A stretch of DNA of 64,000 nt from Chitinophaga sp. MM2321. Its GTDB lineage: Bacteria > Bacteroidota > Bacteroidia > Chitinophagales > Chitinophagaceae. The position numbers and the translations under genes were made by a program. Under the pieces are notes generated by a model. That model was not told the DNA's origin, made no database searches, and was given only the letters and a program-made list of their open reading frames with translations. The stretch covers positions 2,666,001-2,730,000 of the forward strand of contig NZ_OZ035533.1 of the NCBI RefSeq assembly GCF_964033635.1, given 5' to 3'. Shown in pieces: positions 17,968-63,759 of the stretch; position 1 is the first letter of the stretch; each line of letters begins with the position of its first letter.

Positions 17968-18070
17968 TTTGGGTCTTATACCAGCAGGGCACTTCAAAGG
18001 AACACATCCCCTATACCGCAGCAAAAAAAAATGAGTAAATAACCAAATAAGTAAATAATACGTGGAGAAA

Positions 18071-37490: not shown

Positions 37491-37512
37491 AACTTTTAAA
37501 TGCTGATTAATC

Positions 37513-42702: not shown

Positions 42703-45700
42703 ATGTTAAAAGAAAGATTTGTTTTTTATCAACCAGGGATAAAAGTTTTCCTGATATCCTTTTTATTGTTCCTATCTTTTAATGTTTATGCACAGGAAAA
42801 AGTTACCATTACAGGTACCGTTATATCAGATACCAATGAACCACTACCGGGCGCCTCTGTAAAAGTAACAGGCGAGTCTACCGGTACTGTTACACAAGCC
42901 AATGGAACTTTTACACTTCAGGTAAATAAAGGAGCTACGATCGTATTCTCTATTGTTGGTTACGAAGAAAAACGGATTACAGCAGGTAGTGGTGGCTCAA
43001 AGTTAACGATACAGCTTAGCTCCAGAACTTCCGCTTTAGATGAAGTGACCGTAGTTGGTTATGGTACGCAGCGGAAAGTAAATCTTACCGGTGCCGTGGC
43101 TTCTGTATCCAGTAAAACCCTGGGTACAAGTTCCGTTCCCAATGCTGCAAACCTTCTCCAGGGAAGGATAGCCGGTCTGGAAGTTGTACAACCAACCGGT
43201 AAGCCTGGCAATGATAATCCACTCCTCCGGGTCAGGGGAATGGGCTCTTTCGGCGCTTCCTCAGCACCGCTGGTTTTGATAGACGGTGTTTTGGGATCGC
43301 TATCCAATATTGCACCCAGTGATGTTGAGAGCGTAACTGTGCTGAAAGACGCAGCCTCCGCTTCTATCTATGGAGCAAGGGCCGCCAATGGTGTGATACT
43401 CCTTACAACAAAACGAGCAAACCTGGGCGCAGCCTCGCTTGAATATAAACTGGATATAGGTGTTCAACAAGCAACCCGCACGCTTGATCTGATCTGGAAT
43501 TCCGCAGAATATATGACGATGTACAATGCTGCCCGGTTGAGATCAGGAAAGACGGAAGTGTATACGCAGGCACAGATAGATGCTTATGCAAATGCAACGG
43601 ACAGGATTCAGTATCCGAATTATAACTGGCCCGAACACCTCTTCCAAACAGCAATGGCCTATAATCACTCCCTAAGCTTTTCCAAAGCAACTGAAACGAG
43701 TAAGTTCCGGTTCTCCCTGAACTATTCAGACCAGGGCGGTATCCTACCGGTTTATGCGGCAAAAAGGTATACGGCTAATTTAAATTATGAAAACCAGGTA
43801 TTGAAGAGGGTCAAAGTAGGTACGATTATCAATTTTAATAATATCAGTGCTATTGAGCCACAGGGTGGCGGCGCCGTTGACCAGATGAGAGGTATTTATA
43901 ACCGTACACCTTTGGCGATGCCCTTTTTACCGGACGGCAGAAAGTCATCAGGACGCGCTTATGACTCAGAAGCATTCAGTGTGTGGGCGCCCATCACGTA
44001 TACCAACGGTGACAACAGGATGAATACCTATTCTGCCAAGGCACAGGCCTATGTAATTGTTGATCTCCTCAAAGGCCTGCAGTGGGAAACCAAGGGCGCT
44101 TTTGGTTACGATAACTACTTTAGTAAGCTGCATACTTTTAGTACTCCCGGTGAGTATTATTATTATCAAAAATTACCCGGTGCAACAGATTATGCGGTTG
44201 ACCAATCTGTAGGTACACCCATCACGTTGGGTGTATACGACTATAGCACTACCTCCATTACGCCTACCCTCTATTCAACACTGAAGTATAATACCAAAAT
44301 CGGTGACCACGAAATTAATGCGATGGCGGGGTATGAACAACAGTCTAATAATTTCAGGGTCTTGTCCGGCAGCAGGATAACATTCCCAACAGCGGACCTG
44401 GCAGAATTAAATGCAGGTAGCCCTACTGGTCAGAATCTTGGCGGCACATCCACTGCTTGGGGGCTTCAGTCCTTCTTCGGACGGATAGGCTATGATTTCC
44501 GTGGTAAATATTTACTGGAAACCAATCTTCGCTATGATGGTACGTCACGTGTATATAAAGATCATCGCTGGGGCGTATTCCCCGCCGTGTCGGCCGGATG
44601 GAGAATTTCCGAAGAACGATTTTTGAAAGACAGACTGAGCTGGCTGGATAACCTGAAATTCCGTGGATCTTATGGATTGCTGGGGAACCAGGAGATCGGC
44701 CTCTATCCTTATCAGGACATTTTCAGCAATGCCAATTATTCTTATGGCAGTTCTGTTAGCCAGGGCGTTGCAGTTACCCGTATGACGGATAAGAATCTGC
44801 ACTGGGAACAAACCAAAATCCTTGACTTTGGTGTGGATGTAAACGGTTTTAATGGCCTCATCGGAGTAGTTTTCGACTGGTATAAAAAAGATGCCTTCGA
44901 TATCCTGGCAACACTGCCGGTTCCCGGAAGCCTCGGTTTATCCGGCCCCACTACTAATGATGGCGCGGTTCGCAATACGGGTATGGAACTGGCTATAACA
45001 CATAGCAATAATATCCGCAAACTGCACTATGATGTCAATTTCCAGATCGCCAGTAATAAAAATAAGGTCATGTCTATATTGACCCCTACCAAAGGAGCGA
45101 TCGAAGTTGGCCTGCCTTATAATTCATACTACATCTACGAATGGGACGGCATTTTCCAGAGCCAGGAAGAAATAGATAAATCACCCAAACAAAATAATAA
45201 TCCGAGACCCGGCGATCTGAAAATAAAGGACCAGAACGGCGATGGCATTGTAGACGCCAATGACCGGAAAAGTTATACCCGCTTCCCCAAGTATAATTAT
45301 TCATTGAACCTGAATTTTGCCTGGAAAGGTTTTTCATTAGCAGTTTTCTTACAGGCGGTCGAAGGCTCAACGTCTTTTTTGAATGCTGGCAACTGGACAT
45401 CCTTTCCCTTCCGCGAAGGTATTCCCCCAAGTGTTGAATACCGGAATGCCTGGACACCCGAAAACCACAGCAACACAATGCCTGCGGTACATGATTTCTC
45501 TTATGCAGGCGTATATGGATACACTTCAAGTTTTCTGCTAAAGAACAGTTCTTACATACGATTAAAGAACACTTACTTGTCCTATGCTTTACCTCAGCGT
45601 CTGTTGAAACCAATCAAAGCAAAAGAGCTGTCTGTATATGTTTCCGGCAGCAATTTATTAACGTTTACCAAATTTAAAGATGGTGACCCTGAGGGCCCCG

Positions 45701-45768
45701 AAGGCGCGGACCTGAATCAATTTCCCCAGCTACGCAGTTTCAATTTTGGTTTAAACGTTAAATTTTAA
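42703..45768 (+). CDS. SusC/RagA TonB-dependent transporter, first gene of the PUL-like operon
   Basis: The protein has 1021 residues. A signal sequence (VFLISFLLFLSFNVYAQ) is followed by the carboxypeptidase-regulatory-like domain (TGTVISDTNEPLPGASVKVT), the SusC box LDEVTVVGYGTQRKVNLTGAV, plug motifs (LRVRGMGSFGASSAPLVLID, VLKDAASASIYGARAANGVI) and a barrel ending SFNFGLNVKF. There is no STN domain, so it is probably controlled by the AraC gene at the other end of the locus rather than by an anti-sigma system. It begins a run of twelve same-strand genes. From context it imports an oligosaccharide produced at the surface. Confidence 0.96.
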   Translation: MLKERFVFYQPGIKVFLISFLLFLSFNVYAQEKVTITGTVISDTNEPLPGASVKVTGESTGTVTQANGTFTLQVNKGATIVFSIVGYEEKRITAGSGGSKLTIQLSSRTSALDEVTVVGYGTQRKVNLTGAVASVSSKTLGTSSVPNAANLLQGRIAGLEVVQPTGKPGNDNPLLRVRGMGSFGASSAPLVLIDGVLGSLSNIAPSDVESVTVLKDAASASIYGARAANGVILLTTKRANLGAASLEYKLDIGVQQATRTLDLIWNSAEYMTMYNAARLRSGKTEVYTQAQIDAYANATDRIQYPNYNWPEHLFQTAMAYNHSLSFSKATETSKFRFSLNYSDQGGILPVYAAKRYTANLNYENQVLKRVKVGTIINFNNISAIEPQGGGAVDQMRGIYNRTPLAMPFLPDGRKSSGRAYDSEAFSVWAPITYTNGDNRMNTYSAKAQAYVIVDLLKGLQWETKGAFGYDNYFSKLHTFSTPGEYYYYQKLPGATDYAVDQSVGTPITLGVYDYSTTSITPTLYSTLKYNTKIGDHEINAMAGYEQQSNNFRVLSGSRITFPTADLAELNAGSPTGQNLGGTSTAWGLQSFFGRIGYDFRGKYLLETNLRYDGTSRVYKDHRWGVFPAVSAGWRISEERFLKDRLSWLDNLKFRGSYGLLGNQEIGLYPYQDIFSNANYSYGSSVSQGVAVTRMTDKNLHWEQTKILDFGVDVNGFNGLIGVVFDWYKKDAFDILATLPVPGSLGLSGPTTNDGAVRNTGMELAITHSNNIRKLHYDVNFQIASNKNKVMSILTPTKGAIEVGLPYNSYYIYEWDGIFQSQEEIDKSPKQNNNPRPGDLKIKDQNGDGIVDANDRKSYTRFPKYNYSLNLNFAWKGFSLAVFLQAVEGSTSFLNAGNWTSFPFREGIPPSVEYRNAWTPENHSNTMPAVHDFSYAGVYGYTSSFLLKNSSYIRLKNTYLSYALPQRLLKPIKAKELSVYVSGSNLLTFTKFKDGDPEGPEGADLNQFPQLRSFNFGLNVKF

Positions 45769-45779
45769 ATATACGAACC

Positions 45780-47291
45780 ATGAAAAACATACATTTTTAT
45801 ATACTTACTGCCATCGTTATAGCAGCTGCTTCCTGCTCAAAAATCCTGGATAAAAATCCAACAGACGCTATTTCAAGCGCCACCTTCTGGAATACAGATG
45901 CAGATGCACAAATGGCTTTGTCGGGCTGTTATAATAAGCTCTATGGCTGCTGGTCTTTAAATTTTAACCGGTGCTACCTGGATTGTCTCACCGATAACGC
46001 CTTCGGGCAATGGGGTGGTGCCAGCTACAATATGGACGTGATGTCTACAGGCAACCTGACACCAGCTACCAATGGTGTTAATTACAATGCTTATTACCGG
46101 GGGATTGCCGGCTTCAACTACTTTCTTGGCAATATCGACAAAGTACAAACCATAGATCCGGATAAAAAGAATACGTATATCGGTGAAGTCAAATTTCTGC
46201 GGGCGCTGGCTTATTTCGACCTGGTAAATTTTTATGGTGATGTGATCTATTATAAGGAAAGTCCTGCCACCGCCGAAGATGCCAAAATAGCCCAAAGTCC
46301 AAAGGAAGAAGTGCTGGCGGCCATTAAGGAAGATTTGGATTTTGGCATCGCCAACCTGCCCAATACACCCTATGCCGGACATGCGGTAAAGGGAAGCGCC
46401 ATGGCCTTAAAAGTAAGAGTATTGTTGTATGAAAAGAAGTGGCCGGAAGCTGCTGTTCTGGCAAAACAAATTATAGATGACGGAAAATTTAGCCTGGCAA
46501 ACAATTATGAAGGCCTGTTTCTGACACCGGGGCAAGCCAACAACCCGGAAATAATGTTTTCAACTGTTTACACCGCACCTGATCTGCCACAGCAGACCTC
46601 CGAAGGCAGGGCCTCCAACACCCAATTTGGCTGGGGCTCTCACATTGATCCCTACTACGATCTGGTAGATGCCTACGAATGCACCGATGGAAAATCTATC
46701 ACTGAATCTGCTTTGTATGACGCCGCCAAGCCATGGTTAAACCGTGACCCGAGACTTAAATTTACCATCCGTTTACCGAATGTAACCTGGCCCGCAGGCG
46801 AACCGGCAGGTGCGCCCAGTCTTACCGGCATAAATATGCAGAAGTATGTGGATCTTTCACAAGCGCCATTTAGCGGCGGATTTAATTCTTCCTACGACCA
46901 GGATTATGTGCACATCCGGTATGCTGATGTATTGCTGATGTACGCGGAAGCACAAAATGAAGCAGCAGGTCCTTCCGCTGGTGTATATGACGCATTGGAT
47001 AAAATAAGGGCAAGGGCAGGTGTAAATATGCCGCCGGTAGACAGAGTAAAATACAATGCTCAGGATGTGTTAAGAGATTACATCCGTCATGAAAGACGCA
47101 TTGAGCTGGCACTGGAAGGACAAAGGTATTTTGATCTTAAACGCTGGCATATCGCGGATGTGGTATTGCCGAAAATTAAAACACCGGGAGGATTACCGCT
47201 TGTTTTTATTGAAGATTATTATGTACTTCCCTTTCCTCAATCAGAGATAGATATCAATCCAAATCTGAAGCAAAACCCTGGCTATAGATAG
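45780..47291 (+). CDS. SusD/RagB-family glycan-binding lipoprotein
   Basis: The protein has 503 residues. The lipobox is AAASCSKILDK. SusD features include YIGEVKFLRALAYFDLVNFYGDV, IRYADVLLMYAEAQNEAAG, LRDYIRHERRIELALEGQRY and FDLKRWHIADVV, and the end DINPNLKQNPGYR. The start codon lies 11 bp after the susC stop. It pairs with the preceding channel. Confidence 0.96.
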   Translation: MKNIHFYILTAIVIAAASCSKILDKNPTDAISSATFWNTDADAQMALSGCYNKLYGCWSLNFNRCYLDCLTDNAFGQWGGASYNMDVMSTGNLTPATNGVNYNAYYRGIAGFNYFLGNIDKVQTIDPDKKNTYIGEVKFLRALAYFDLVNFYGDVIYYKESPATAEDAKIAQSPKEEVLAAIKEDLDFGIANLPNTPYAGHAVKGSAMALKVRVLLYEKKWPEAAVLAKQIIDDGKFSLANNYEGLFLTPGQANNPEIMFSTVYTAPDLPQQTSEGRASNTQFGWGSHIDPYYDLVDAYECTDGKSITESALYDAAKPWLNRDPRLKFTIRLPNVTWPAGEPAGAPSLTGINMQKYVDLSQAPFSGGFNSSYDQDYVHIRYADVLLMYAEAQNEAAGPSAGVYDALDKIRARAGVNMPPVDRVKYNAQDVLRDYIRHERRIELALEGQRYFDLKRWHIADVVLPKIKTPGGLPLVFIEDYYVLPFPQSEIDINPNLKQNPGYR

Positions 47292-47332
47292 TTTGAATTT
47301 TTTATTAAATCCTCTACTAAACAACATTGAAT

Positions 47333-49399
47333 ATGAATGTAGCAGCAAGAAAAACAATTAAAATGGGTAAGATAAAAATACTGTTCCTCTTCACCCTGCT
47401 TGCTTTTCAACACGAAGCATTTTCCCAGCAGGTAAAAGGTACAGCATCAAAAGCGGTTGACGGGCGCCAGTGGATCCGGCAGCATTTTGCAAAAGGTAAG
47501 GTGCCCCCATTTTCTTTTGTTTATGGGGGAAAAAACTCAGCCGATTTTATTAAGAGCTGGGGATATAAAGTAGAAAAAGGCACGCCATCGGGTTCAAATA
47601 CGGAAACGTCTGTTTACACTTATTCTGATAAGCAGAGCGGTCTTGTAGTAAAATGCCTGGTTACCTGCTTCAATGATTTCCAGGCGGTAGAATGGGAACT
47701 AAAATTCTCCAATACTTCCGAAAATAATACACCACTGATCGAGAAAGCAGCCGTGATTGACCAGACTTTTGGAACTACCGAAAAAGGTAGTTTCAATCTC
47801 TATCATGCAAAGGGAAGTAATGCGGAAAGAAGCGACTTTCAACCGATCGATGAAAAGTTGGAAGTGGGCAAAAATATTTATATGACGCCAACTGGTGGCC
47901 GCTCTTCCGACAACACGGCTTTCCCGTTTTTTAATATTGGTCTTCCCGGACAGCAGGGAATTGTGGTAGCAGTAGGATGGTCCGGAAAATGGTATGCCGA
48001 CATCAACCAGCTAAATGAAAAAACGATCTCCCTTAAATCGGGTATGGAAAAAATGAAGCTGGCCCTTTATCCGAAGGAAGAGATCCGCACACCCAAGATC
48101 TGCCTCCTTTTTTGGAAAGGAGAAGACAGGATGACCGGTCACAACCAGTTCCGTCAATTTGTGCTGGCTCATCATACGCAAAAAATGAATGGTAAGCATG
48201 TGGAGCTGCCTTTGGCCGCCTTTCTTGCCCGTGGTGGTCCGTCTCCCTGCAATGAACACGTTTGCGCCACAGAGGGTTTTGCGGTGGCAGAGATCCGCAG
48301 ACATCAGCAATTCAATATCGTTCCGGAAGTTTTTTGGTTGGATGCGGGCTGGTATTCCTGTAAAGGCCAATGGCCCAACACAGGAAACTGGACACCCAAT
48401 AAAGAAAATTTCCCCAACGGTTTAAAACCGGTTACTAACGCGGCACATACTGCGGGCGCTAAATTTATTCTATGGCTGGAGCCGGAACGTGTTACCGAAG
48501 GAACAGAATTTGCCAATAAGAATCCCGACTGGATCATAAAAATCGGTAACAATAAAAATTTCCTGTTTGACCTGGGGAACACCGAAGCACGCTTGTGGAT
48601 GACAGATTATGTTTCTAACCTGATCAAAAAAGAAGGGGTAGATTATTATCGCCAGGATTTTAATATGGATCCGATGCCCTACTGGACAGCAAACGACAAA
48701 CCCAACCGCACCGGTATTTCCGAGATCAGACATATCGAGGGTCTGTATGCTTATTGGGATAGCCTGCTCGTTCGCTTTCCTGACCTGCTGATAGACAACT
48801 GTGCCAGTGGAGGCCGGCGCATCGACCTGGAAACAACATCACGTAGCTCTCCTTTATGGAGAACGGATTATCAATATGGAGAGCCAAATGGTTCGCAGTG
48901 CCATGCCTATGGTCTTAATTTTTATCTACCGCTTTCCGGCACCGGTAATGTTGTAAGTACGCCGTATGCATTTCGCTCCAGCATGAGCAGTGCGGTGGCT
49001 TTAATGTGGGATATCAACAATTCCTCCAGGTCGCTCCCGCAAATGCAAAAATGCATGCAGGAATTTAAACAGTTGCGCCCTTTTTATTATTCTGATTATT
49101 ACCCGCTTACCCAAACAGATAACATGACGAAGGACAACGTTTGGCTGGCTTACCAGTTAAATCGTCCGGAAGCAAGTGATGGAATTATCATGGCCTTCAG
49201 GCGCGAGGACGCTCCGGAAGAATCTATCCAGGTTCAACTGAGAGGCATTGATAAAACTGCATCGTATGAATTGCTGGACGAAGACACGCAAAAAAAGATC
49301 ATTCAAAATGGGGAGCAACTGAGCAATGGGATCGCCCTATCACTGAAGGAAAAAAAGACATCCCTGTTGATCAGTTATAAGAAAGTAAACAACCAATAA
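47333..49399 (+). CDS. Secreted alpha-galactosidase-type glycoside hydrolase (GH36/melibiase-like)
   Basis: The protein has about 689 residues with a signal peptide (FLFTLLAFQHEAFSQ). ATG 47363 is an equally reasonable start. An N-terminal beta-sandwich (about 30-300) precedes the barrel: VFWLDAGWYSCKGQWPNTGN, FILWLEPERVTEGTEF, and the nucleophile motif DYYRQDFN (Asp442), with DNCASGGRRIDLET and the presumed acid/base Asp512 in SPLWRTDYQ. Family GH36 cleaves terminal alpha-galactosides with retention. The RQDFN form in place of the common KWDMN is a variant, so activity on another alpha-sugar is possible. It probably trims the polymer or oligomer in the periplasm or at the surface. Confidence 0.9.
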   Translation: MNVAARKTIKMGKIKILFLFTLLAFQHEAFSQQVKGTASKAVDGRQWIRQHFAKGKVPPFSFVYGGKNSADFIKSWGYKVEKGTPSGSNTETSVYTYSDKQSGLVVKCLVTCFNDFQAVEWELKFSNTSENNTPLIEKAAVIDQTFGTTEKGSFNLYHAKGSNAERSDFQPIDEKLEVGKNIYMTPTGGRSSDNTAFPFFNIGLPGQQGIVVAVGWSGKWYADINQLNEKTISLKSGMEKMKLALYPKEEIRTPKICLLFWKGEDRMTGHNQFRQFVLAHHTQKMNGKHVELPLAAFLARGGPSPCNEHVCATEGFAVAEIRRHQQFNIVPEVFWLDAGWYSCKGQWPNTGNWTPNKENFPNGLKPVTNAAHTAGAKFILWLEPERVTEGTEFANKNPDWIIKIGNNKNFLFDLGNTEARLWMTDYVSNLIKKEGVDYYRQDFNMDPMPYWTANDKPNRTGISEIRHIEGLYAYWDSLLVRFPDLLIDNCASGGRRIDLETTSRSSPLWRTDYQYGEPNGSQCHAYGLNFYLPLSGTGNVVSTPYAFRSSMSSAVALMWDINNSSRSLPQMQKCMQEFKQLRPFYYSDYYPLTQTDNMTKDNVWLAYQLNRPEASDGIIMAFRREDAPEESIQVQLRGIDKTASYELLDEDTQKKIIQNGEQLSNGIALSLKEKKTSLLISYKKVNNQ

Positions 49400-49531
49400 T
49401 TTTTAAGATAGCATAGATATAAGAGGAACGCACTATTTTAATAAAACGTAAAATGAATGGACAGGGCTCGCATCGTGACAAGAATTTTTTCAAAGTCCTT
49501 TGCGGCCCCATTCATAAATCTGATATCCAGC

Positions 49532-52351: not shown

Positions 52352-52354
52352 AAA

Positions 52355-53281: not shown

Positions 53282-53290
53282 TTTTTAGAT

Positions 53291-54112
53291 ATGTCAGGAA
53301 AAATGATTGGGAAAAAAGTATTGGTAACCGGTTCCGGTACAGGACTGGGCCGGGAAACAGCGTTGGAATTTGCCCGGCAGGGAGCTATGGTGGTGTTGCA
53401 TTATGCACATAGTAAAGATGGCGCTGCATCTGCCGTGAGTGAAATAACAGCCGCCGGCGGTAAAGCCACCGCTATTAAAGCGGATCTGCAGGATGCAAAA
53501 GAGGCCGTACGACTGGCTCGCGAAGCCATTGACTTTCTGGGCGGCATAGATGTACTGGTTAACAATGCCGGTATCTCCATGACACTTGAATTTGAGCAGG
53601 TTACTCCTGAACAGTATGATACCGTTTACAACGTGAATGTAAGGGCGCAGTTTTTTATTATGCAAACTGTTTTGCCGGTGATGGAAGCTGCCGGTGGCGG
53701 CGTCATTATCAACCTGTCTTCTGTACATGGTATCAGGGCTTGTAAGGGCCATTCCGTGTATGCCGGTACCAAAGGCGCTATCATTGCCCACACACGGGAG
53801 CTGGCTGTAGAACTGGCCCCTAAAGGCATCCGGATAAATGCCGTGGCACCGGGTGCTGTACCTGTAGAAAACCAGTTCAAAGCAGCGGGAACAGATGATT
53901 TCAGTGAACTGGGGAAAATGATTCCCTGTGGATTCCCGGGCACACCACTTGATATTGCCAAAACAATCATCTTTCTGGCATCAGACGATGCCAGGTATAT
54001 AGTCGGACAAACCATCGTAGTGGATGGTGGTACTACTTCCTGGATGTCTTTCAGTGATGGATTTAATAATACAGGACTACGGCTGGGCAAAGGTTATGTG
54101 CCAGGTCTGTAA
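53291..54112 (+). CDS. SDR-family oxidoreductase (complete catalytic residues)
   Basis: The protein has 273 residues. It is a classical short-chain dehydrogenase: cofactor motif VTGSGTGLGRE (about 13-22), VLVNNAGIS, and catalytic Ser144, Tyr157 and Lys161 in NLSSVHGIRACKGHSVYAGT followed by K. The tail has AVAPGAVPVENQF and DARYIVGQTIVVDGG. It oxidises or reduces a hydroxyl/keto group with NAD(P); relatives include glucose-1-dehydrogenase-like sugar enzymes. Within the operon a role in the first oxidation of the sugar is plausible. Confidence 0.92.
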   Translation: MSGKMIGKKVLVTGSGTGLGRETALEFARQGAMVVLHYAHSKDGAASAVSEITAAGGKATAIKADLQDAKEAVRLAREAIDFLGGIDVLVNNAGISMTLEFEQVTPEQYDTVYNVNVRAQFFIMQTVLPVMEAAGGGVIINLSSVHGIRACKGHSVYAGTKGAIIAHTRELAVELAPKGIRINAVAPGAVPVENQFKAAGTDDFSELGKMIPCGFPGTPLDIAKTIIFLASDDARYIVGQTIVVDGGTTSWMSFSDGFNNTGLRLGKGYVPGL

Positions 54113-54131
54113 TTCATTCAACTAAATTTTC

Positions 54132-55265
54132 ATGATGCTGTATACGCTGTTATTGAGCCTTCTTTTTAAAACATCTCCGGTTAACCTGCCGGAAAAGGAT
54201 AGCATTATATTTCCTGCGGCGGTTACTGTGTATGTCAGCAAGGATGGCAACGATAAAACCGCTGTTGCGGGCAGCAATAGCAAACCCTTTCTCACCCTCA
54301 CCGCAGCGTTGGCAGCTATTCCCGCAGCAGGTGGTTGCATCCTGATTGGTCCGGGCGAATTTGCATCACCGGAACACGCCGATCTGAAGTCGCATCTCAT
54401 GATAGCTGGCGCCGGAAAACCGGTGCCTGACTGGAACAGGGAATACGATAGGAAGACAGGGAAGCTCCGGTTTACTCCCCCGCAAAAACTGGTGGGAGGT
54501 ACCGTATTAAAAGGAACACTTGATTGCTCATTGCTGGAAAATATCATCGTTAAAGATCTGGGTGTGGACGCAGGCGCTACATGGTGTAAAGAGTATAATA
54601 ACGGCGCTCCGGCAGAAGCATTGATTTTTGCACAGCGTTATAACCTGAAAGGAGGTCTCTCCGGCGCGGATGGTATTCATGAACTACAAGTACTATCTCC
54701 ACCCAGACAAGGTATTGTTGTGGAAAATGTGGCGGCCTTGTGCAGGGATGCACGGGCACCTGTACATGCTATGTTATTTGAAAATTTATATTGCCCGCAA
54801 ATCAGTAACGTCTCTACTTATTTCGGGGTACATGGTGTTGTGCTTAAAACGCAGGGGGGATTACTAACCAACCTGGATGCGCATGGACATTTCTCGAACG
54901 GACTGATTCTGAAATCCAATGATTATGCTTTTGGCAACGGGATCAGTGTAAGCAACGTTTACATCACTTCCATTATGCCGGGTGATGGCGGCGGAATCAG
55001 ATTGGTAGCAGACATCGACACGCTGAAGCATATTACCGTCAGCAATTTCGTGGTAGAGGATGCCCGGTTTGGTATCACCAATAATGGTGATGTGGATGGA
55101 GCTATCATTGCAAACGGGCATCTGCTGAATTGTTCCGACTTCAGTATTTCAGTGGATTCACATCTCTCCCATTCTATATTTTCTAACATAATAGAACGCA
55201 GGTCGGGTCGCACAACGGTCATCTCCGGAGAGGCGCTTCATAAGCGTACACGCACCAATCAATAA
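54132..55265 (+). CDS. Right-handed beta-helix protein, pectate-lyase-like fold
   Basis: The protein has 377 residues. A short hydrophobic start (LYTLLLSLLF) may be a signal peptide. The opening VTVYVSKDGNDKTAVAG and SKPFLTLTAALAAIPAAGG are typical of the N-cap of secreted beta-helix proteins. Later there are regular coils with ISNVSTYFGVHGVVLK, GNGISVSNVYITSIMPGDGG, HITVSNFVVEDARFGITNNG. Polysaccharide lyases and GH28/GH110-like enzymes share this fold, but no catalytic residues could be identified. In this operon a role in glycan cleavage or binding is likely. Confidence 0.75.
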   Translation: MMLYTLLLSLLFKTSPVNLPEKDSIIFPAAVTVYVSKDGNDKTAVAGSNSKPFLTLTAALAAIPAAGGCILIGPGEFASPEHADLKSHLMIAGAGKPVPDWNREYDRKTGKLRFTPPQKLVGGTVLKGTLDCSLLENIIVKDLGVDAGATWCKEYNNGAPAEALIFAQRYNLKGGLSGADGIHELQVLSPPRQGIVVENVAALCRDARAPVHAMLFENLYCPQISNVSTYFGVHGVVLKTQGGLLTNLDAHGHFSNGLILKSNDYAFGNGISVSNVYITSIMPGDGGGIRLVADIDTLKHITVSNFVVEDARFGITNNGDVDGAIIANGHLLNCSDFSISVDSHLSHSIFSNIIERRSGRTTVISGEALHKRTRTNQ

Positions 55266-55278
55266 AATATGAAAAGCT

Positions 55279-56064
55279 ATGGAATTGCTTAAAAAGATAC
55301 AGGAAACTGTTGTTGACAAGGGTGAAATAGCCCTCTTTTATCTTGCCCAGGCAGGTTTCTGCATCCGGACGGCCAGTGGTAAAACAATCGTCATAGATGC
55401 CTATCTGTCGGATGCCTGCGAGCGGTTGTTCAATTTTAAACGGATGATACCTGCTGTCATCGGGGCACATGAATTAAACGCCGACCTGTATCTCTGTACG
55501 CACCATCATGCTGATCATTTCGACCCGGATACCATTCCGGTTGTTGCAAAGAATGAAACTACATTTTTTGTAACGGCACCTGATTGTGAAACATTATTGA
55601 ACGAATTGAATATTACGCCGCAACGCTATCATATTTTAAAGGAAGAACAACAATGGCAGGGAGCAGAAATACAGGTCAGGGCCATATTCGCAGATCATGG
55701 AGAGCTGGCTCCGGACGCCGTTGGTTTTTTAATTGAAGTGGAGGGTATAAAAATATACCATGTCGGCGACACTGCTTTCAGACCGGAAGAAATCATGCGC
55801 TCCTTACACACAAATGTAGATATCATGATAGCGCCCATAAACGGGCAATATGGTAATATGAATGCTTTTGAGGCCTGCCGGTTAGCAGCTGAGATAAAAC
55901 CGAACATACTGATTCCCTGTCATTTCTGGATGTTTCTTGAACATGTGAGTGAAGGTGGTAAAGGCGATCCTGCCACTTTTCTGCAGGAGGCTTCCCAGTT
56001 ACCGGAAACAGTAAAAGCCATGGTAATGGCGCCGGGTGAAGTTTTTATCTATGCTAAACAATGA
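55279..56064 (+). CDS. MBL-fold metallo-hydrolase, UlaG-like (possible sugar lactonase)
   Basis: The protein has 261 residues with no signal peptide. The metal motif HxHxDH is present in CTHHHADHFD (His75, His77, Asp79, His80). Downstream ligands are visible in VGDTAFRPEE and IPCHFWMFLEHVSEGG. The overall pattern resembles UlaG, the L-ascorbate-6-phosphate lactonase, and related hydrolases. In an operon with two SDRs and a 2-hydroxyacid dehydrogenase, a lactonase that opens a sugar lactone made by an aldose dehydrogenase fits well, but this is inference. Confidence 0.88.
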   Translation: MELLKKIQETVVDKGEIALFYLAQAGFCIRTASGKTIVIDAYLSDACERLFNFKRMIPAVIGAHELNADLYLCTHHHADHFDPDTIPVVAKNETTFFVTAPDCETLLNELNITPQRYHILKEEQQWQGAEIQVRAIFADHGELAPDAVGFLIEVEGIKIYHVGDTAFRPEEIMRSLHTNVDIMIAPINGQYGNMNAFEACRLAAEIKPNILIPCHFWMFLEHVSEGGKGDPATFLQEASQLPETVKAMVMAPGEVFIYAKQ

Positions 56065-56119
56065 TCCGGTCTTTCATACGTATTTGTCACCCCCAGTAAT
56101 AATTTAATCAACTAAGGAT

Positions 56120-58522
56120 ATGAATAATCTAACGAAGAAAAAAGACGCGCCTGCTATGGCAACCCAGGATAAGCAAAGCTTATTGCACCTGTATGAACAA
56201 ATGTTACGGATCAGGAAATTTGAGCTGGCCGTACAGGATAGCTACAAGAAAGGAGAGATACCTGGATTTATCCATTTATGTGTGGGACAGGAAGCGGTGG
56301 CCGTAGGCGTATGTGCAAACCTTAAACATACTGATTGGATTACAAGCACGCATCGTGGCCATGGGCATGGATTAGCGAAAGGTGTGGATTTAAAAGAGAT
56401 GCTGGCAGAATTGTATGGAAAGGCCACCGGTACCAATGGTGGTCGTGGCGGGTCGATGCATATTTACAGTGCAGCTGCGGGTCTGTTTGGCACCAATGGC
56501 CTGGTAGGCGGAGGAATACCGCTGGCCGTAGGATTGGGTATGAGTGCGCAGGTACAACATAGTGATGGCGTCGCAGTAGCGTTCTTTGGGGATGGTGCTA
56601 TTTGCCACGGCTCTTTTCATGAATCGATATGCCTCGCAGCTATAAAAAAGACGCCGGTAGTTTTTATCTGTGAGAATAATCTGTATGCGACCTGTACCCC
56701 TGTTACAAAAGCAAACCTGAATACAGATATTGCCGGTAAAGCGGCGGCCTATGGCATACCGGGTATCCGGGTGGATGGCAATGATGTGCTGGCAGTGCAG
56801 CAGGTGACGGCGCAGGCAGTAGCGCGCGCCCGTAAAGGCGAAGGTCCAACCCTGATTGAAGCGGTCACTTACCGCACTGTAGGTCATCATGAAGGTGACG
56901 TGCTGGTAGGTACCTACCGTACCAAAGAAGAACTGGAAGAATGGATCACCCGGTGCCCGATAAAAAACTTCGAAAACTATCTCACTACATCAGCTATAGC
57001 AACAGCAAAAGAAATAGCCGATATAACGACAAACGTTGACAAGGAAATAGCAGCGGCACTGGACTTTGCCCGTTCCTCTGCATATCCCGAAGCAGCTACC
57101 GTTACAGATCATTGCTGGATGAACCCGGTTAATCCGCTGGTGGCTTTACAACAATCATCTCAAACGGGAGAAACGGCCGTACAGGGCTGGCTCGCAGCGG
57201 TGCGTGATGGTATCGCGGAAGAAATGCGCCGGGATAAAAACGTTATTTATATGGGGGAAGGTATCGGTGAAAGAGGTGGAACATTTGGTCAGACGAAAAA
57301 CTTATGGGGCGAATTCGGTGATGAGCGGTTGATAGATACTCCTATTTGTGAGTTGGCATTTACCGGCGCCGCTGCTGCAACTTCGGCAACTGGGTGTCGC
57401 ACTATTGCCGACCTGATGTTTGCAGATTTTATTTTTGATGCTACGACGCAAATCATTAACCAGGCGAGCAAATTACGGTACATGAGCAACGGCCAGTTCG
57501 GTGTACCCATGATTATCCGTGCCGGCGCAGGGCAAATTAAACAGGCAGGTCCACAGCATAGCGGCACCTTCCACTCCCTTTGGGCAAACTGCCCTGGTTT
57601 GATTGTAGTAGTGCCCTCTACACCCGCTGATGCCAAAGGGCTCATGAAAACAGCATTACGTGCAGGCGATCCCGTTATCTTCCTGGAACCTAAATCACTT
57701 TTATCTTCAAAAGGCCCCGTTCCTGTTACAGAGGAATATATTCCATTTGGCAAAGCCAGGTTAGTGGAAGAAGGCAGTGATATAACGGTAGTAAGTTTCG
57801 GCCAACCCGTACACGCTTGTATAGAAGCCGCTAAACAGTTAAACAGCCAGGGTATTTCCTGCGAAATAATCGACCTCCGTACCATCATTCCTTTTGATGC
57901 AGACTGTATCATTAATAGCGTCACTAAAACAGGGCATTTACTCGTAGTGGATGAAGCTTACACCCCTTGTTCTGTAGGCGCCGAGATCACCACTATTGTG
58001 CAGGAAAATTGTTTTTACACATTAAAAGCGCCAGTGGGACGACTGAACAAACCATCCGTACCACAGCCTTTTAGTCCGCCATTGGAAGCAGCCGTCACCA
58101 TTACTGCTGAAAAAATTATGCAGGCGGTTAAATCAATCCTGGATGGTGTTGTTGTTAAAACCAGCTATCTGCCTGTAAGTGGTATCATATCTGAAACATC
58201 TTCCGGTAGCAGTACACAAAGTAATCCGGGAAAACAAAACGATGCTACGCCTGATCAGCCTTCGGAGGCCGCGCCCACCAGCAGCAACAGTATAGCAGTA
58301 ACAATCCCCAACCTGGGGCTTACCATCACCGAAGTATCGATAGCCCGGTGGTATAAAAAAGCAGGTGATCTTGTTAAAAAAGGAGAACCCTTATTAGACT
58401 TTGAAAGTGATAAATCGGTCATCGAACTTGAATCACCGGAAGATGGTCAGTTGAGTAGCATTGTTGCAGAAGAAGGCGTTACAGTACCTATCGGCGCAGT
58501 AGTAGCTTTTATTGATAAATAA
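56120..58522 (+). CDS. Fused TPP-dependent dehydrogenase: E1alpha-E1beta with C-terminal lipoyl domain
   Basis: The protein has 800 residues. E1alpha (about 15-320) has MLRIRKFELAVQDSYKKGEI, the THRGHGHGLAKG segment and the TPP-Mg motif from GDGAICHGSFHES to CENN (about 157-185). E1beta (about 355-690) has VIYMGEGIGERGGTFGQTKN, ICELAFTGAAAATSATGCR and VVDEAYTPCSVGAEITTI. After a Ser/Pro/Gln-rich linker (about 690-725) comes a lipoyl domain (TIPNLGLTITEVSIARWYKK) with the acceptor Lys765 in FESDKSVIELE. The protein thus unites the decarboxylating part and the lipoyl carrier of a 2-oxoacid or acetoin dehydrogenase complex. No E2 catalytic domain or E3 is encoded in the window. It lies 55 bp after the lactonase-like gene. 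Confidence 0.93.
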   Translation: MNNLTKKKDAPAMATQDKQSLLHLYEQMLRIRKFELAVQDSYKKGEIPGFIHLCVGQEAVAVGVCANLKHTDWITSTHRGHGHGLAKGVDLKEMLAELYGKATGTNGGRGGSMHIYSAAAGLFGTNGLVGGGIPLAVGLGMSAQVQHSDGVAVAFFGDGAICHGSFHESICLAAIKKTPVVFICENNLYATCTPVTKANLNTDIAGKAAAYGIPGIRVDGNDVLAVQQVTAQAVARARKGEGPTLIEAVTYRTVGHHEGDVLVGTYRTKEELEEWITRCPIKNFENYLTTSAIATAKEIADITTNVDKEIAAALDFARSSAYPEAATVTDHCWMNPVNPLVALQQSSQTGETAVQGWLAAVRDGIAEEMRRDKNVIYMGEGIGERGGTFGQTKNLWGEFGDERLIDTPICELAFTGAAAATSATGCRTIADLMFADFIFDATTQIINQASKLRYMSNGQFGVPMIIRAGAGQIKQAGPQHSGTFHSLWANCPGLIVVVPSTPADAKGLMKTALRAGDPVIFLEPKSLLSSKGPVPVTEEYIPFGKARLVEEGSDITVVSFGQPVHACIEAAKQLNSQGISCEIIDLRTIIPFDADCIINSVTKTGHLLVVDEAYTPCSVGAEITTIVQENCFYTLKAPVGRLNKPSVPQPFSPPLEAAVTITAEKIMQAVKSILDGVVVKTSYLPVSGIISETSSGSSTQSNPGKQNDATPDQPSEAAPTSSNSIAVTIPNLGLTITEVSIARWYKKAGDLVKKGEPLLDFESDKSVIELESPEDGQLSSIVAEEGVTVPIGAVVAFIDK

Positions 58523-58545
58523 ATAAGCAGATTAAATAAATAGAA

Positions 58546-59352
58546 ATGCAGACATGTAAGGCTAAGTATGATTTTACCGGTCAGGTGGCTTTAGTCACCG
58601 GCTCCGCTGGCGGCATCGGACAAGCAATCGCCGAAAAATTTTATCAGGATGGTGCTTATGTGGTTATAACAGATATACAGGAAGAAGCAGGAAAAAAGAT
58701 CGCCGCATCCCTGGGCAACAGGGCAATATTTATTCCATGTGATATCAGCCATCCGGAACAAGTGAATCAACTTGTAGAGAAAACAGTGCAGCATTTCGGC
58801 CGGCTGGATATCATGATCAACAATGCCGGCATTAATTCAACTGCCGCAGTTGACCGGGTTACTACAGACAAGTATCCGGATGAAACCTGGCAGAAGATGA
58901 TCGATGTGGATCTCAACGGTACATTTTATTGTTGTAAAGCAGCTGCCAGAATAATGAAAGAACAAAAGGGGGGCGCCATCGTAAATGTCGCTTCTGTTGC
59001 CGGTGTGGTGGCGCTGCGGCTACAGGTGGGCTTTGTGGCAGCCAAGGCCGCCATTCTGAAGATGACCGAAGCCATGGCTTGCGAACTGGCGCCACATGGC
59101 ATCCGGGTGAATGCGGTATCGCCGGGTTCAACGATAACTGAAACGACGCGACATCTTTTTTACAGCGACACTGGTAGTTTCAGTGAACTGGCAGACCGGC
59201 TTATTTCTTTTATTCCACAGGGACGCCCGGGGGAAGCAGCAGAAATCGCTGAAGCAGTTGTATTCCTGTCCTCCGGTTCGGCTTCCTATATCAATGGGCA
59301 TAATATCATAGTGGATGGCGGTTGGACCTGCGGGTTTAACAGGGATTTCTGA
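58546..59352 (+). CDS. SDR-family protein with Phe replacing the catalytic Tyr
   Basis: The protein has 268 residues. The Rossmann motif VTGSAGGIGQAIAEKF (about 17-32), MINNAGINST and the C-terminal SYINGHNIIVDGGWTC are standard for FabG-like SDRs. Ser150 and Lys167 are in place (NVASVAGVVALRLQVGFVAA then K), but the usual Tyr is Phe163 (codon ttt at 59032-59034). Without that hydroxyl the ordinary proton-transfer mechanism should fail. It may use another acid/base, serve as a binding protein, or be an inactive partner of the first SDR of the operon. Confidence 0.9.
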   Translation: MQTCKAKYDFTGQVALVTGSAGGIGQAIAEKFYQDGAYVVITDIQEEAGKKIAASLGNRAIFIPCDISHPEQVNQLVEKTVQHFGRLDIMINNAGINSTAAVDRVTTDKYPDETWQKMIDVDLNGTFYCCKAAARIMKEQKGGAIVNVASVAGVVALRLQVGFVAAKAAILKMTEAMACELAPHGIRVNAVSPGSTITETTRHLFYSDTGSFSELADRLISFIPQGRPGEAAEIAEAVVFLSSGSASYINGHNIIVDGGWTCGFNRDF

Positions 59353-59392
59353 CGGATGTCAGTAAAAATTTATCAACTATTAAACCTTAATT

Positions 59393-60436
59393 ATGGAAAT
59401 ATTACTTGGATTAGTACTCGTAGTGCTGGCGGGGTTAGGTACAGGTACGGTCGCGTGGCCGATGAAGAAGATCAACGAACTGCATTTCGAACAATACCTG
59501 TTTGTATTCATGTTGTCGGCTATTATCGTATATCCGTGGCTGGTAGTATTGATTAAGGTGCCTGATCTGGTACAACTGGTTAAAACAGTAGGGCTGAAAC
59601 CATTGCTTATTTCTAATCTTTTATCCATCAGCTGGGGCGTAGCCAATGTTCTTTACCTGGTTTGTGTGGTTCGTATCGGGGCTGCGCTGACGGGAGCCAT
59701 CCTTTCAGCTGCCGGGATGTCGATAGGCGTTATTATTCCTATGCTCTTTAAGGGGAGCGGATTATTCAGCAACGCACCGAACATCTTCTCTCCTGCCGGC
59801 GTGGTAATATTGGTTGGGCTGGTAGTCATTATTATCGGTATATCCCTGGTGAGTGTTGCCGGGTTTGGCCGGGAAAAAATTTTAAAGCAGGAAAGTGATG
59901 CATCAAAAAAACAACAGGGTTCAGGAAGCTTTGTAAAAGGATTGATATTGGTGATCATCGCCGGATTCCTTTCCAGTGGTATATCCCTGGCATTTGTATA
60001 TAGCCAGGGGCCTGTTATCGCAGCAGCGAAGCAACAGGGGGCGGGAGATATTACAGCAAATTTCTCTGTCTGGGCCTTGTGTATGTTTGGAGGAGGGTTA
60101 GTGAATGTGCTGTATGCCGTTTACCTCATGACGAAGAAAAATACCTGGCACCTGTTATTTGCAAGAAAAGATGAAATCGTATATGGCTCTATCATCGGTC
60201 TGCAATTTATTCTCTCCATTATACTTTTAGGTAAGGGCATGCTTTTGCTCGGCGCTTTGGGCGCATCCGTTGGCTTTGCTATTCAACAGTCATTACAGGT
60301 GATAGGTAATCAGCTGGTAGGCTTTATCGGCGGAGAATGGAAGGCGATAAAGGGCAGGCCCAGGAATACCATGTACCTGGCGATTGCAACGATTCTGGTT
60401 GCCGTCATTATTCTTGCTTTCAGCAATACGATGTAA
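59393..60436 (+). CDS. RhaT-like sugar/proton symporter (L-rhamnose transporter family)
   Basis: The protein has 347 residues with about ten membrane helices, for example LGLVLVVLAGLGTGTVAWPM, YLFVFMLSAIIVYPWLVVLI, and VILVGLVVIIIGISLVSVAG. The start GTGTVAWPMKKINELHFEQY and ISWGVANVLYLVCVVRIGAA match the RhaT branch of the drug/metabolite transporter superfamily. RhaT imports L-rhamnose with protons, but Bacteroidota have many relatives with other substrates. It places an inner-membrane uptake step for a monosaccharide or sugar acid at the middle of this pathway. Confidence 0.85.
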   Translation: MEILLGLVLVVLAGLGTGTVAWPMKKINELHFEQYLFVFMLSAIIVYPWLVVLIKVPDLVQLVKTVGLKPLLISNLLSISWGVANVLYLVCVVRIGAALTGAILSAAGMSIGVIIPMLFKGSGLFSNAPNIFSPAGVVILVGLVVIIIGISLVSVAGFGREKILKQESDASKKQQGSGSFVKGLILVIIAGFLSSGISLAFVYSQGPVIAAAKQQGAGDITANFSVWALCMFGGGLVNVLYAVYLMTKKNTWHLLFARKDEIVYGSIIGLQFILSIILLGKGMLLLGALGASVGFAIQQSLQVIGNQLVGFIGGEWKAIKGRPRNTMYLAIATILVAVIILAFSNTM

Positions 60437-60500
60437 AACCTATAACAGCATTTTATCCAGCAAACAAAACCTACTTTAATTATTATTATTGAAACAGTTT

Positions 60501-61454
60501 ATGAGTAAAGGAAAAGTATTTGTTACCGATTATGGGTTTCCTGGCCTGCAGCAGGAATGCGAGCTGCTGAACGCACTGGGATATGAAGTATATTCCACAG
60601 TAAGCAGTACAGAGGAGGAGATTATTGCCAATGCAGGAGATGCAGATGCTTTACTCGTTCAGTGGGCCCCGGTAACAGCCAAGGTAATAGCACATCTGCA
60701 TAAATGTAAAGTGATTGTGAGATATGGTATCGGTGTGGACAATATTGATCTTGAGGCAGCGAAAAAGAAGGCCATCCCGGTGTGTAATGTTCCCGACTAT
60801 TGTATTCACGAAGTAGCTGATCATACCATCTCCCTGGCATTGGCACTGGCAAGACAACTCACTGAAACCAATTACCGGATGAAAAAGGGAATATGGAAAA
60901 TTATCCCTCCACATCCGATGCCCGCCTTTCGTGATATGCTCTTTGCTACAGTAGGATACGGCCGGATTGCCAGCGAAGTATTAAAACGTAGCGCATCATT
61001 TGGATTTGCAGTCGGGGCATATGATCCCAACATAACAAATGAACAAATGGAGGCTTCCGGCGTACAGCCGTTAACGTTCGAGGAGTTGATTTCAACAGCT
61101 GATATCATTTCACTACATCTCCCATTGAATGAAAAGACACATCATTTAATCAATGCAGAGACAATTCAAAAAATGAAAAAAGGAACCATCCTTTTAAATA
61201 CATCCAGAGGCGGTCTTATTGATACAGCTGCACTCGCCACTGCACTGGAAGAACGTAGAATAGTAGCAGGACTGGATGTATTTGAATCCGAACCTTTACC
61301 GGAAACACATCCATTATGGAAATCCGAGCATGCCCTGCTCACCTCCCATACAGCATGGTACAGCTCCAGAAGCGTTCCGGCGTTGCAGTACCTGGCTGCC
61401 GAAGAAGTATGTAGGGGATTGCAGGGAGAAGCACTTAAAAACAGGGTGGCATAG
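60501..61454 (+). CDS. D-2-hydroxyacid dehydrogenase (CtBP/phosphoglycerate-dehydrogenase-like)
   Basis: The protein has 317 residues from the ATG at 60501 (a TTG at 60489 is less likely). The NAD-binding motif is FATVGYGRIASEVLKR (about 150), with catalytic Arg in LNTSRGGLIDTAAL, Glu in DVFESEPLPETHPL and His in LLTSHTAWYS. The substrate-side motif RYGIGVDNIDLEAAKKKAIP is standard. These enzymes reduce 2-oxo acids or oxidise D-2-hydroxy acids. As last catalytic gene of the operon it may act on the product of the sugar-acid steps. Confidence 0.92.
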   Translation: MSKGKVFVTDYGFPGLQQECELLNALGYEVYSTVSSTEEEIIANAGDADALLVQWAPVTAKVIAHLHKCKVIVRYGIGVDNIDLEAAKKKAIPVCNVPDYCIHEVADHTISLALALARQLTETNYRMKKGIWKIIPPHPMPAFRDMLFATVGYGRIASEVLKRSASFGFAVGAYDPNITNEQMEASGVQPLTFEELISTADIISLHLPLNEKTHHLINAETIQKMKKGTILLNTSRGGLIDTAALATALEERRIVAGLDVFESEPLPETHPLWKSEHALLTSHTAWYSSRSVPALQYLAAEEVCRGLQGEALKNRVA

Positions 61455-61508
61455 CTATCCGTATCAAGACAAGTTAAATAGCAGCCTGAACAAAAAAACG
61501 ATGGGGAT

Positions 61509-61560
61509 ATAGCAATTAACCATTTAAAGCTTTATCTTAAAGCTATAAAACAATTGCTAT
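61509..61560 (+). promoter_or_regulatory. Structured leader and direct repeat at the AraC regulator start
   Basis: A 9-bp inverted repeat (61509-61517 with 61552-61560) places the first two bases of the ATG at 61559 in the stem. Inside lie two copies of ttaaagct (61524-61531 and 61537-61544) 13 bp apart. The repeats could be half-sites for autoregulation; the hairpin could limit translation. Confidence 0.45.
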
Positions 61561-62425
61561 GCAACCATTGCTCATCAAAGTTAATGTACCACAAAAAGCG
61601 TCCTTCAGTGTCAACAGGTCGGTGTTTAGCAATGGGTTTCCGGGGATATGGCATTTTCATGACGAGTATGAGCTGACCCTCATACTTGAAAGCAGCGGCC
61701 GGCGCATGGTAGGGGATCATATTGACAGGTTCACCTCTGGCGACCTGATCTTTATAGGGAAAAATCTGCCCCATACCTGGCGCAATGATGAGCTACATAC
61801 CTATGATAAATCAGAAGTATTGGTACTTCATTTTCTGGATGACTTTTTAGGAAATACATTCTTTGGGATTCCTGAAATGGCAAAGGTGAGTGCTTTCCTG
61901 GAACGCTCTCACAGAGGCATTAAAATAATAGGAGAAACCCGGGATTATATTGCGGACCAGCTTATAAAAATGGAACAGGCAGCAGGTGCGGACAATATCA
62001 TACTACTGCTTTCTATGCTAAATACGCTTTCGAATTCAGATTCAAATGACCTCGTAGAGCTATCCAGTGAGGGCTTTGCCAATTCCATTGATGAATCAGG
62101 CTCCAACCGGCTGAATAAAGTATATGAATATATCATGAACAACTTCCAGGAAGGAATCAGTCTCGTAAAAGTTGCTGCTGTAGCTAATATGAGTCCCACC
62201 GCCTTCAGCAGGTATTTTAAAAGCAGAACCAGGAAGTCTTTTTCGCAATTTACGATTGAACTAAGAATAGGATACGCCTGTAAACTTTTAATGAGAGAGG
62301 ATATGAGTGTTACACAGGCATGTTATGAGAGTGGTTTCCAGAACCTGTCAAATTTCAATCAGCAGTTCAAGGAAATTACGCGGCTAACGCCCAAGAAATA
62401 TCAATTGATGCATGCTGCAAAATAA
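61559..62425 (+). CDS. AraC-family transcriptional regulator with cupin sensor domain
   Basis: The protein has 288 residues. The N-terminal cupin-like half (about 25-110) has IWHFHDEYELTLILESSGRR and SGDLIFIGKNLPHTWRN. The C-terminal AraC DNA-binding domain (about 185-285) has SLVKVAAVANMSPTAFSRYF, SVTQACYESGFQNLSNFNQQ and ITRLTPKKYQ. It lies 104 bp after the last operon gene on the same strand, with its own leader. Cupin/AraC proteins usually sense a sugar; it is the best candidate activator of the operon at 42.7-61.5 kb. Confidence 0.93.
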   Translation: MQPLLIKVNVPQKASFSVNRSVFSNGFPGIWHFHDEYELTLILESSGRRMVGDHIDRFTSGDLIFIGKNLPHTWRNDELHTYDKSEVLVLHFLDDFLGNTFFGIPEMAKVSAFLERSHRGIKIIGETRDYIADQLIKMEQAAGADNIILLLSMLNTLSNSDSNDLVELSSEGFANSIDESGSNRLNKVYEYIMNNFQEGISLVKVAAVANMSPTAFSRYFKSRTRKSFSQFTIELRIGYACKLLMREDMSVTQACYESGFQNLSNFNQQFKEITRLTPKKYQLMHAAK

Positions 62426-63554: not shown

Positions 63555-63759
63555 GATAGAAAATTTGAATGGGTGAATATAACAATTCAATTGATGAATG
63601 AGAAGGATTTCGTGTATAACATTTCTACTTAAACAACTCCTGCGCCTGTTCAAATCCAAAAACGAGATGTTTATTTTTCGTTGTAATCAGGTTATGATAC
63701 ATCTTTATTCTTCCGTTATAATCCTTATCTTAGGAGTAAAACAATCAATCTTCTCCCCT

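Follow-up and report, generated by a model that had tools for sequence, protein, structure and literature searches.

Gene content and conservation of the locus

The window analysed here is a 64,000-nucleotide stretch of the Chitinophaga sp. MM2321 genome (contig NZ_OZ035533.1), and between its positions 42703 and 62425 thirteen genes, twelve plus one for an AraC-type regulator, lie on the + strand in what we consider, with a rough probability of 0.56, to be a locus for glycan capture that includes its own non-phosphorylating module for sugar oxidation. At the level of sequence, the gene families, a conserved gene order, intact catalytic residues in three of the enzymes (E1lip, SDR1 and MBL, described below) and an altered active site in a fourth (SDR2) are established. 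From SusC to AraC the intergenic gaps are 11, 35, 57, 3, 9, 19, 13, 55, 23, 40, 52 and 104 bp, the 57-bp gap widening to ~132 bp if the 964-aa protein that follows it begins as in its database copy (939 aa). An earlier sequence-only reading of this DNA had described twelve same-strand genes with mostly short gaps followed by an AraC gene, and we confirmed its coordinates, strand and gaps, while Pfam bore out its assignment of the SusC/SusD, GH36, two SDR, metallo-beta-lactamase-fold, E1-lipoyl fusion, RhaT-like, 2-Hacid_dh and AraC proteins.

The block opens with a SusC-like TonB-dependent transporter (42703..45768; Pfam Plug and CarbopepD_reg_2) and a SusD-like lipoprotein (45780..47291; Pfam SusD_RagB, 157.8 bits), followed by a glycosidase of the GH36 type (47327..49399), which matches alpha-galactosidase structures and whose Melibiase domain scores 95.8 bits against a Pfam cut-off of 27, and by the 964-aa protein resembling (alpha/alpha)-barrel glycosidases (49457..52351, with a start probably near 49532). 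Behind these lie a mutarotase-like protein of family DUF5107 (52355..53281), an ordinary short-chain dehydrogenase/reductase (SDR1, 53291..54112) proposed as a C1 sugar dehydrogenase, a protein that had been called a beta-helix (54132..55265), a UlaG-like metallo-beta-lactamase-fold hydrolase (MBL, 55279..56064) proposed as a lactonase, a fused E1alpha-E1beta-lipoyl enzyme (E1lip, 56120..58522), a variant SDR with Tyr-to-Phe and Asn-to-Asp replacements (SDR2, 58546..59352), a RhaT-like sugar symporter (59393..60436; Pfam RhaT, 56.4 bits), a D-2-hydroxyacid dehydrogenase (HADH, 60489..61454; Pfam 2-Hacid_dh) and the AraC-type regulator (61559..62425; Pfam AraC). The adjacent susC/susD pair, with a GH36 enzyme and an AraC regulator in one block of conserved order, marks the locus as a polysaccharide utilization locus.

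The two enzymes proposed for the upper part of the oxidation, SDR1 and MBL, were matched as sugar dehydrogenase and lactonase at superfamily level only. SDR1 contains the complete Asn-Ser-Tyr-Lys tetrad of classical SDRs. MBL shares with the UlaG (L-ascorbate-6-phosphate lactonase) family the metallo-beta-lactamase fold and the metal-binding motifs (HHHADH, GDT and PCH), but is a distant relative, scoring 49.9 bits against a cut-off of 306 for the UlaG model, and among 395 class genomes a homologue (E ≤ 1e-25) was present only in the window's own. That genome also encodes a 37% MBL paralogue between enolase-superfamily and RraA-like proteins (locus L139, G000:C1 near 1885598), perhaps a second sugar-acid cluster.

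The order mutarotase-SDR1-MBL-E1lip-SDR2-RhaT-AraC, together with orthologous SusC/SusD, recurs in Flavihumibacter (L148/L149) and in the Chitinophagaceae metagenome-assembled genome (MAG) G123 (L118; record JAHBTK010000006.1), and a second MAG, G1366 (L150), matches this arrangement between SusD and E1lip, the gene at which its contig stops; L038 and L039 duplicate the records G123 and G1366 and were counted once. Three genera, with that of the window, share the conserved block. In Flavihumibacter fluvii (G1279) the genes run SusC (63% identity), SusD (65%), a 699-aa protein, GH2, a GlcD-like FAD oxidase, GH127, GH36 (58%, L148), mutarotase (66%), SDR1 (86%), MBL (67%), E1lip (78%), SDR2 (75%), RhaT (75%) and AraC (76%), and in G123 they run SusC, SusD, the 699-aa protein, GH2, GH127, mutarotase, SDR1, MBL, E1lip, SDR2, RhaT and AraC. 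Across these loci the identities span 65-67% for SusD (L148, L118 and L150), 59-67% for the mutarotase-like protein (L118 and L148-L150), and 79-86% and 61-67% for SDR1 and MBL, each in three genomes; RhaT and the AraC gene behind it reach 71% and 64% in L118 and 75% and 76% in L149. The metabolic block is constant, and the glycosidases and the 2-hydroxyacid enzyme vary between loci: the GH36-like glycosidase has no match in L118 or L150, and HADH has none in L118 or L149, the Flavihumibacter locus having the GlcD-like FAD oxidase instead. The sequence-only reading had staked its proposal on the oxidative genes co-occurring with this SusC/SusD pair, and in other Chitinophagaceae they do so with its orthologues.

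The gene after SusD encodes the 699-aa protein (L148 8478-10577, L118 13655-15754 and L150 1513-3612) in each of the other three Chitinophagaceae loci that were read; the copies from L118 and L148 gave no Pfam match, and that from L148 gave no NCBIfam match.

The E1-lipoyl enzyme, the variant SDR and their relatives

E1lip is an 800-aa chain in which Pfam recognizes E1_dh, Transket_pyr, Transketolase_C and Biotin_lipoyl domains. Residues were read in the best 120 of 7,551 homologues, only candidates sharing most words having been scored, and Glu411 and His480, which we take to be catalytic, Asp158 and Asn186, which we take to be thiamine pyrophosphate (TPP) residues, and His256 are invariant in 120/120. 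The lipoyl Lys765 is kept in 100/100 copies that have the lipoyl domain, and E1lip has the catalytic Glu/His, the TPP motif and the lipoyl Lys of a 2-oxoacid dehydrogenase E1. Like the 2-oxoacid and acetoin dehydrogenase complexes, it combines E1alpha, E1beta and a lipoyl domain with the catalytic and lipoylated residues intact; unlike them, it joins all three on one chain, and the locus encodes neither an E2 catalytic domain nor an E3. In an unrooted E1 tree the E1lip clade was monophyletic among the proteins tested (support 1.00) and stood apart from the pyruvate dehydrogenase-type and fused branched-chain 2-oxoacid dehydrogenase-type E1 chains of the window genome, as named by similarity.

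SDR2 departs from the classical tetrad, its four positions being Asp122-Ser150-Phe163-Lys167. In the best 120 of 1,179 proteins, Ser150 and Lys167 are invariant, the Asn position is Asp122 in 99%, and the Tyr of the YxxxK motif is replaced by Phe in 115 and retained in 5; across 14 distinct loci, Phe occurs in 11 (the window, L149, L118, L057, L044, L046, L052, L054, L058, L060 and L092) and Tyr in three (L047, L051 and L147). Three aligned relatives in the PDB have Tyr and Asn at the equivalent sites, and SDR1, in the same block and with a normal tetrad, serves as an internal control. Both SDRs had been read as dehydrogenases, which remains the proposal for SDR1; SDR2, judged by its active-site residues, is not a standard dehydrogenase, and its sequence is compatible with a different kind of oxidoreductase, with an isomerase and with a partner subunit. 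It scores 228 bits against a butanediol-dehydrogenase model with a cut-off of 270, and its second-best PDB match is 4dqx, which the available part of one source places near the type 2 L-2-keto-3-deoxyfuconate 4-dehydrogenase (PMC11199699). The idea that the Phe goes together with E2 loss was given up, L092 combining Phe with an intact-looking E2 and L051 combining Tyr with another such E2. Rhizobial clusters also encode a second, shortened SDR-like protein (L044 2897-3487, adjoining SDR2, and L057 9172-9864), and the L057 copy, which has a GGWTAGYGRDF-type tail, seems on inspection to be missing the glycines that usually bind the nucleotide; the protein may be a partner subunit.

Outside Bacteroidota, a scan of named genomes for E1lip (best 80 of 431 loci) returned relatives of 51-53% in 21 loci (L040-L060), mostly of Mesorhizobium with Bosea and alphaproteobacterial MAGs, and of 53% in one Lentisphaerae MAG (L092); named lineages among the best 120 homologues also include Planctomycetota, Verrucomicrobiota and Abditibacteriaceae. 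All 21 alphaproteobacterial loci contain an E2-like gene, 17 contain HADH (at least 33% over 40% of length, homologues rather than established orthologues of the window HADH), nine contain an SDR2 homologue of 44-49% within the DNA stretch covered, and the Bosea locus has a 36% SDR1 relative. Four rhizobial clusters read gene by gene (L040, L044, L052 and L057) encode galactonate-dehydratase-like enolases, one in L057 and a pair in each of the other three (profiles run on one each from L040 and L044), and a split transketolase, which was profiled in L044. Inspection of the translations alone adds ABC sugar transporters, regulators of the LacI and GntR types, and SMP-30-like and mutarotase-like proteins. 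Around E1lip in Alphaproteobacteria, partly similar roles are thus seen with other gene families.

The Lentisphaerae locus L092 contains a KDPG-aldolase-family gene truncated at the contig end, SDR2, E1lip, E2, Ldh_2 and a malic enzyme, and in a second genome of that phylum (L147) SDR2 is divergent from E1lip and is accompanied by an acetyl-CoA hydrolase/CoA-transferase relative, with no 2-hydroxyacid oxidoreductase among the genes read. The E2 catalytic motif is kept in L051 and L092, and E2 is degenerate, lacking DHRxxDG, in L044, L052 and L057, the three rhizobial-type copies aligned from the 21 E2-matching loci. A split E2 (E3_binding plus catalytic domain) adjoins E1lip in L092 and L051, a neighbourhood that points to a lipoyl arm able to work with a genuine acyltransferase. 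No E2-like match was found in the window, L118 or L148-L150, and the window genome encodes three E2 proteins outside the locus. Three unrelated families of 2-hydroxyacid oxidoreductase occur in SDR2-E1lip clusters, namely HADH in 17 of the 21 loci L040-L060, the GlcD-like oxidase in L148 and Ldh_2 in L092, and this recurrent company in different lineages is the main hint at what the proposed cleavage would yield.

A proposed route and its alternatives

In the route that we propose, a glycan fragment would be imported by SusC/SusD and the two glycosidases would free a monosaccharide, perhaps an L-sugar, towards which the fold evidence leans weakly; the RhaT-like symporter would take up the sugar and the mutarotase-like protein would set its anomer. 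SDR1 would then oxidize C1 to give a lactone and MBL would convert the lactone to the acid, the steps up to this point being suggested by family membership. The substrate of SDR2 and E1lip would be the sugar acid or a compound derived from it, and we hypothesize that the chain is cut here: E1lip with TPP would cleave a 2-oxoacid or an alpha-hydroxyketone, so that its own lipoyl arm, or another carrier, receives the acyl group, and the co-product would be a small 2-oxo or 2-hydroxy acid interconverted by HADH. If the reaction is oxidative, E2 and E3 from elsewhere in the genome would complete acyl transfer, and AraC would sense a pathway compound. The broader proposal is of a new sugar route, in which a single-chain TPP E1-lipoyl enzyme and a re-tooled Asp-Ser-Phe-Lys SDR, rather than a dehydratase and aldolase, would cleave the carbon chain, and which would operate in Bacteroidota glycan loci and, with other companions, in Alphaproteobacteria and Verrucomicrobiota/Lentisphaerae, several lineages managing without an E2 or a lipoyl arm; this we put forward tentatively, at clearly less than even odds.

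Several observations weigh against the route proposed here. Domain scans found no dehydratase, aldolase, E2 or E3 among the locus proteins, nor the FAH hydrolase or aldehyde dehydrogenase expected of a Weimberg- or Entner-Doudoroff-type route, and the E2 and E3 that would be encoded with an E1 are lacking in the locus, the genome not having been searched for E3. Thus the sequence-only claim that the locus carries its own dehydrogenase-lactonase-TPP enzyme pathway stands as far as the linkage of oxidoreductase genes to SusC/SusD, but not as a complete pathway. SDR2 lacks the Tyr of normal SDR dehydrogenases, the L118 block has no 2-hydroxyacid enzyme that we could see, and the lipoyl domain is missing in 20 of the best 120 E1lip homologues, by three events under parsimony on the best tree (one placement with support 0.46; counted without P0051, a 602-aa protein on a short contig). 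The glycosidases vary among orthologous loci, so the glycan is not fixed. The block is also rare: a close E1lip orthologue (E ≤ 1e-200) occurs in 4/394 family genomes, the window's included, in 0/9 other same-genus genomes among those listed, which makes the block sporadic within the genus, and in 2/288 genomes of the phylum of L092, that of L092 included, and among 395 phylum genomes an E1lip above 40% identity was found only in the window's own.

The best-surviving alternative is an Entner-Doudoroff-like route with a dehydratase from elsewhere, in which the sugar would pass through lactone and acid to a 2-keto-3-deoxy acid and E1lip would oxidatively decarboxylate this acid, or a diketo acid, to acyl-CoA. 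The galactonate-dehydratase-like enolases of the four rhizobial clusters agree with it, as do 12 enolase-superfamily proteins (not all of which need be dehydratases) and four IlvD/EDD proteins over cut-off elsewhere in the window genome, the MBL paralogue with its two neighbours, one RraA-like and one related to enolase-type dehydratases, and the KDPG-aldolase-family gene and the CoA-transferase/acetyl-CoA hydrolase relative that adjoin SDR2 in L092 and L147, respectively. However, no dehydratase lies in the window block or among the block open reading frames of L148/L149, L118 and L150, and SDR2 is Tyr-less, unlike the 2-keto-3-deoxyfuconate 4-dehydrogenase in the available part of its description (PMC11199699), and we regard this route as rather unlikely.

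E1lip could also work like acetoin dehydrogenase, cleaving the C-C bond of a sugar-derived alpha-hydroxyketone into an acyl thioester and an aldehyde. In the unrooted tree the E1lip clade branches next to two E1 proteins of Enterococcus whose lpdA-E1-E1-E2 operon, accompanied by a sigma-54 regulator, we take to encode acetoin dehydrogenase, and the butanediol-dehydrogenase score of SDR2, although below cut-off, points the same way; but this placement depends on a single reference and the branch separating the remaining E1 proteins has a support of 0.72, and we consider the activity improbable.

Alternatively, E1lip might be CoA-free and act as a TPP lyase or decarboxylase, with the lipoyl arm and E2 as remnants in the course of disappearing. 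The degenerate E2 copies, the absence of an E2-like match from the window and the related Chitinophagaceae loci, and the lipoyl-less homologues, which keep the E1 site, would all fit, but lipoyl-less copies may have a separate lipoyl gene, the lipoyl Lys persists wherever the domain does, and the catalytic motif survives in L051 and L092 while three E2 proteins are available in the window genome; we think a CoA-free enzyme unlikely. The last alternative, a polysaccharide utilization locus that merely neighbours an unrelated oxoacid dehydrogenase gene, could draw on the rarity of close E1lip orthologues in the family and genus, but the same order in genomes of three genera makes the gene set more than chance and leaves this explanation very improbable.

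The non-phosphorylating L-fucose pathway includes a dehydratase and a FAH-type hydrolase. Unlike it, the window locus has neither, and SDR2 has Phe where its aligned relatives have Tyr. The likeness lies in SDRs that act on sugar acids, and the L-2-keto-3-deoxyfuconate 4-dehydrogenase of that pathway offers the nearest SDR chemistry in the available part of the source (PMC11199699). The carrageenan regulon of Zobellia galactanivorans, in the part of its description available to us, brings GH127-type glycosidases together with an NAD-dependent dehydrogenase that acts on the sugar they set free, other enzymes of sugar-acid metabolism, a DMT sugar/H+ symporter and regulation by AraC, and its route continues with a cycloisomerase, a 2-keto-3-deoxygalactonate kinase and an aldolase, SusC/SusD being encoded elsewhere (PMC5698469). 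The window locus likewise unites glycosidases, a sugar dehydrogenase, sugar-acid enzymes, a symporter and AraC; unlike that regulon as there described, it includes SusC/SusD and has MBL, a Tyr-less SDR, a TPP E1-lipoyl fusion and HADH as its lower steps. Because the Zobellia regulon already combines such genes, the general idea is not new, and the contrast drawn by the sequence-only reading, that typical loci of this kind leave catabolism to genes elsewhere, loses its force, a locus with its own oxidative sugar pathway being known (PMC5698469).

What looks new is the lower part, the TPP enzyme and the Tyr-less SDR, and in the open-licence literature we found no paper whose title or abstract start describes an E1-lipoyl enzyme in a glycan locus. 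We know of no C-C cleaving step of this kind in non-phosphorylating sugar routes. If the proposed route is correct, it would add such a step to non-phosphorylating sugar degradation and would give a function to the E1-lipoyl group (a fusion in 100 of the best 120 homologues) and to the Tyr-less SDR group (115 of the best 120). It would also mean that one sugar can have a route of its own within a glycan locus, a point of importance for genome-based prediction of glycan fate.

Accessory proteins and surroundings

In the GH36-like protein, the motifs YRQDF and LWRTDY were located, and we assume that their Asp residues are the candidate nucleophile and acid/base, respectively. The 964-aa protein, which had been called six-hairpin-like, has no Pfam match and was modelled as an (alpha/alpha) barrel with glycosidase matches in a fold search that tested families GH78/GH95/GH127, a search in which other clans may be missed and absence from the match list is uninformative. 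Its named relatives lie in Ferruginibacter, Planctomycetota, Armatimonadota, Omnitrophica and Hydrogenedentes, and this distribution suggests an old exchange of the gene between these groups. The mutarotase fold proposed earlier is likewise only partly upheld: DUF5107 passes its cut-off narrowly (28 bits against 24.4) and Aldose_epim falls below its own (18.3 against 27). The supposed beta-helix could not be substantiated, DUF1565 matching below cut-off (E 0.0026) and the single-sequence model being unusable (pLDDT 35); the protein has no homologue in 118 other class genomes and no match in the orthologous loci, and we gave it no role.

The RhaT-like symporter passes the Pfam RhaT cut-off and reaches 176.3 bits against the 369 of the NCBIfam equivalog NF010022, and family membership does not fix the sugar as the 6-deoxyhexose that the sequence-only reading had thought possible. 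L-Arabinose was considered as the common sugar of GH36, GH127 and GH2 and set aside, the matches to NF053652 and to aceric-acid hydrolase lying far under cut-off.

Promoter-like sites in the window numbered 38 against a shuffle expectation of 37.5 and terminator-like sites 27 against 21.2, counts that do not mark the block as one operon; the Bacteroidetes-type promoter pattern, in the form we assume for it, had a single match in the window, where 2.6 were expected, and this lay outside the cluster, and tRNA and Rfam scans of the window gave no matches. Recent transfer was assessed by base composition and dropped, the GC content of the cluster (46.0%) giving no signal against the rest of the window (45.1%).

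Upstream on the same strand, both the window and G123 have genes that on inspection resemble leuC, D, A and B; in G123 they directly adjoin the orthologous SusC. Between the leu-type genes and the glycan locus, the window holds another SusC/SusD pair (34335-39015; SusD by Pfam), and at 39763-40743 a protein whose match to the ligand-binding domain of neurotransmitter-gated ion channels narrowly passes the cut-off (28.6 bits, cut-off 26), possibly a relative of bacterial pentameric channels. Farther upstream, on the - strand at 9919-18628, translations read without a family scan indicate a separate SusC/SusD pair with a sulfatase-like protein, with FecR-like and sigma-factor-like genes upstream. 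Directly behind AraC, on the opposite strand (62535-63659, -), lies a gene for a nucleoside-hydrolase-family protein (Pfam IU_nuc_hydro).

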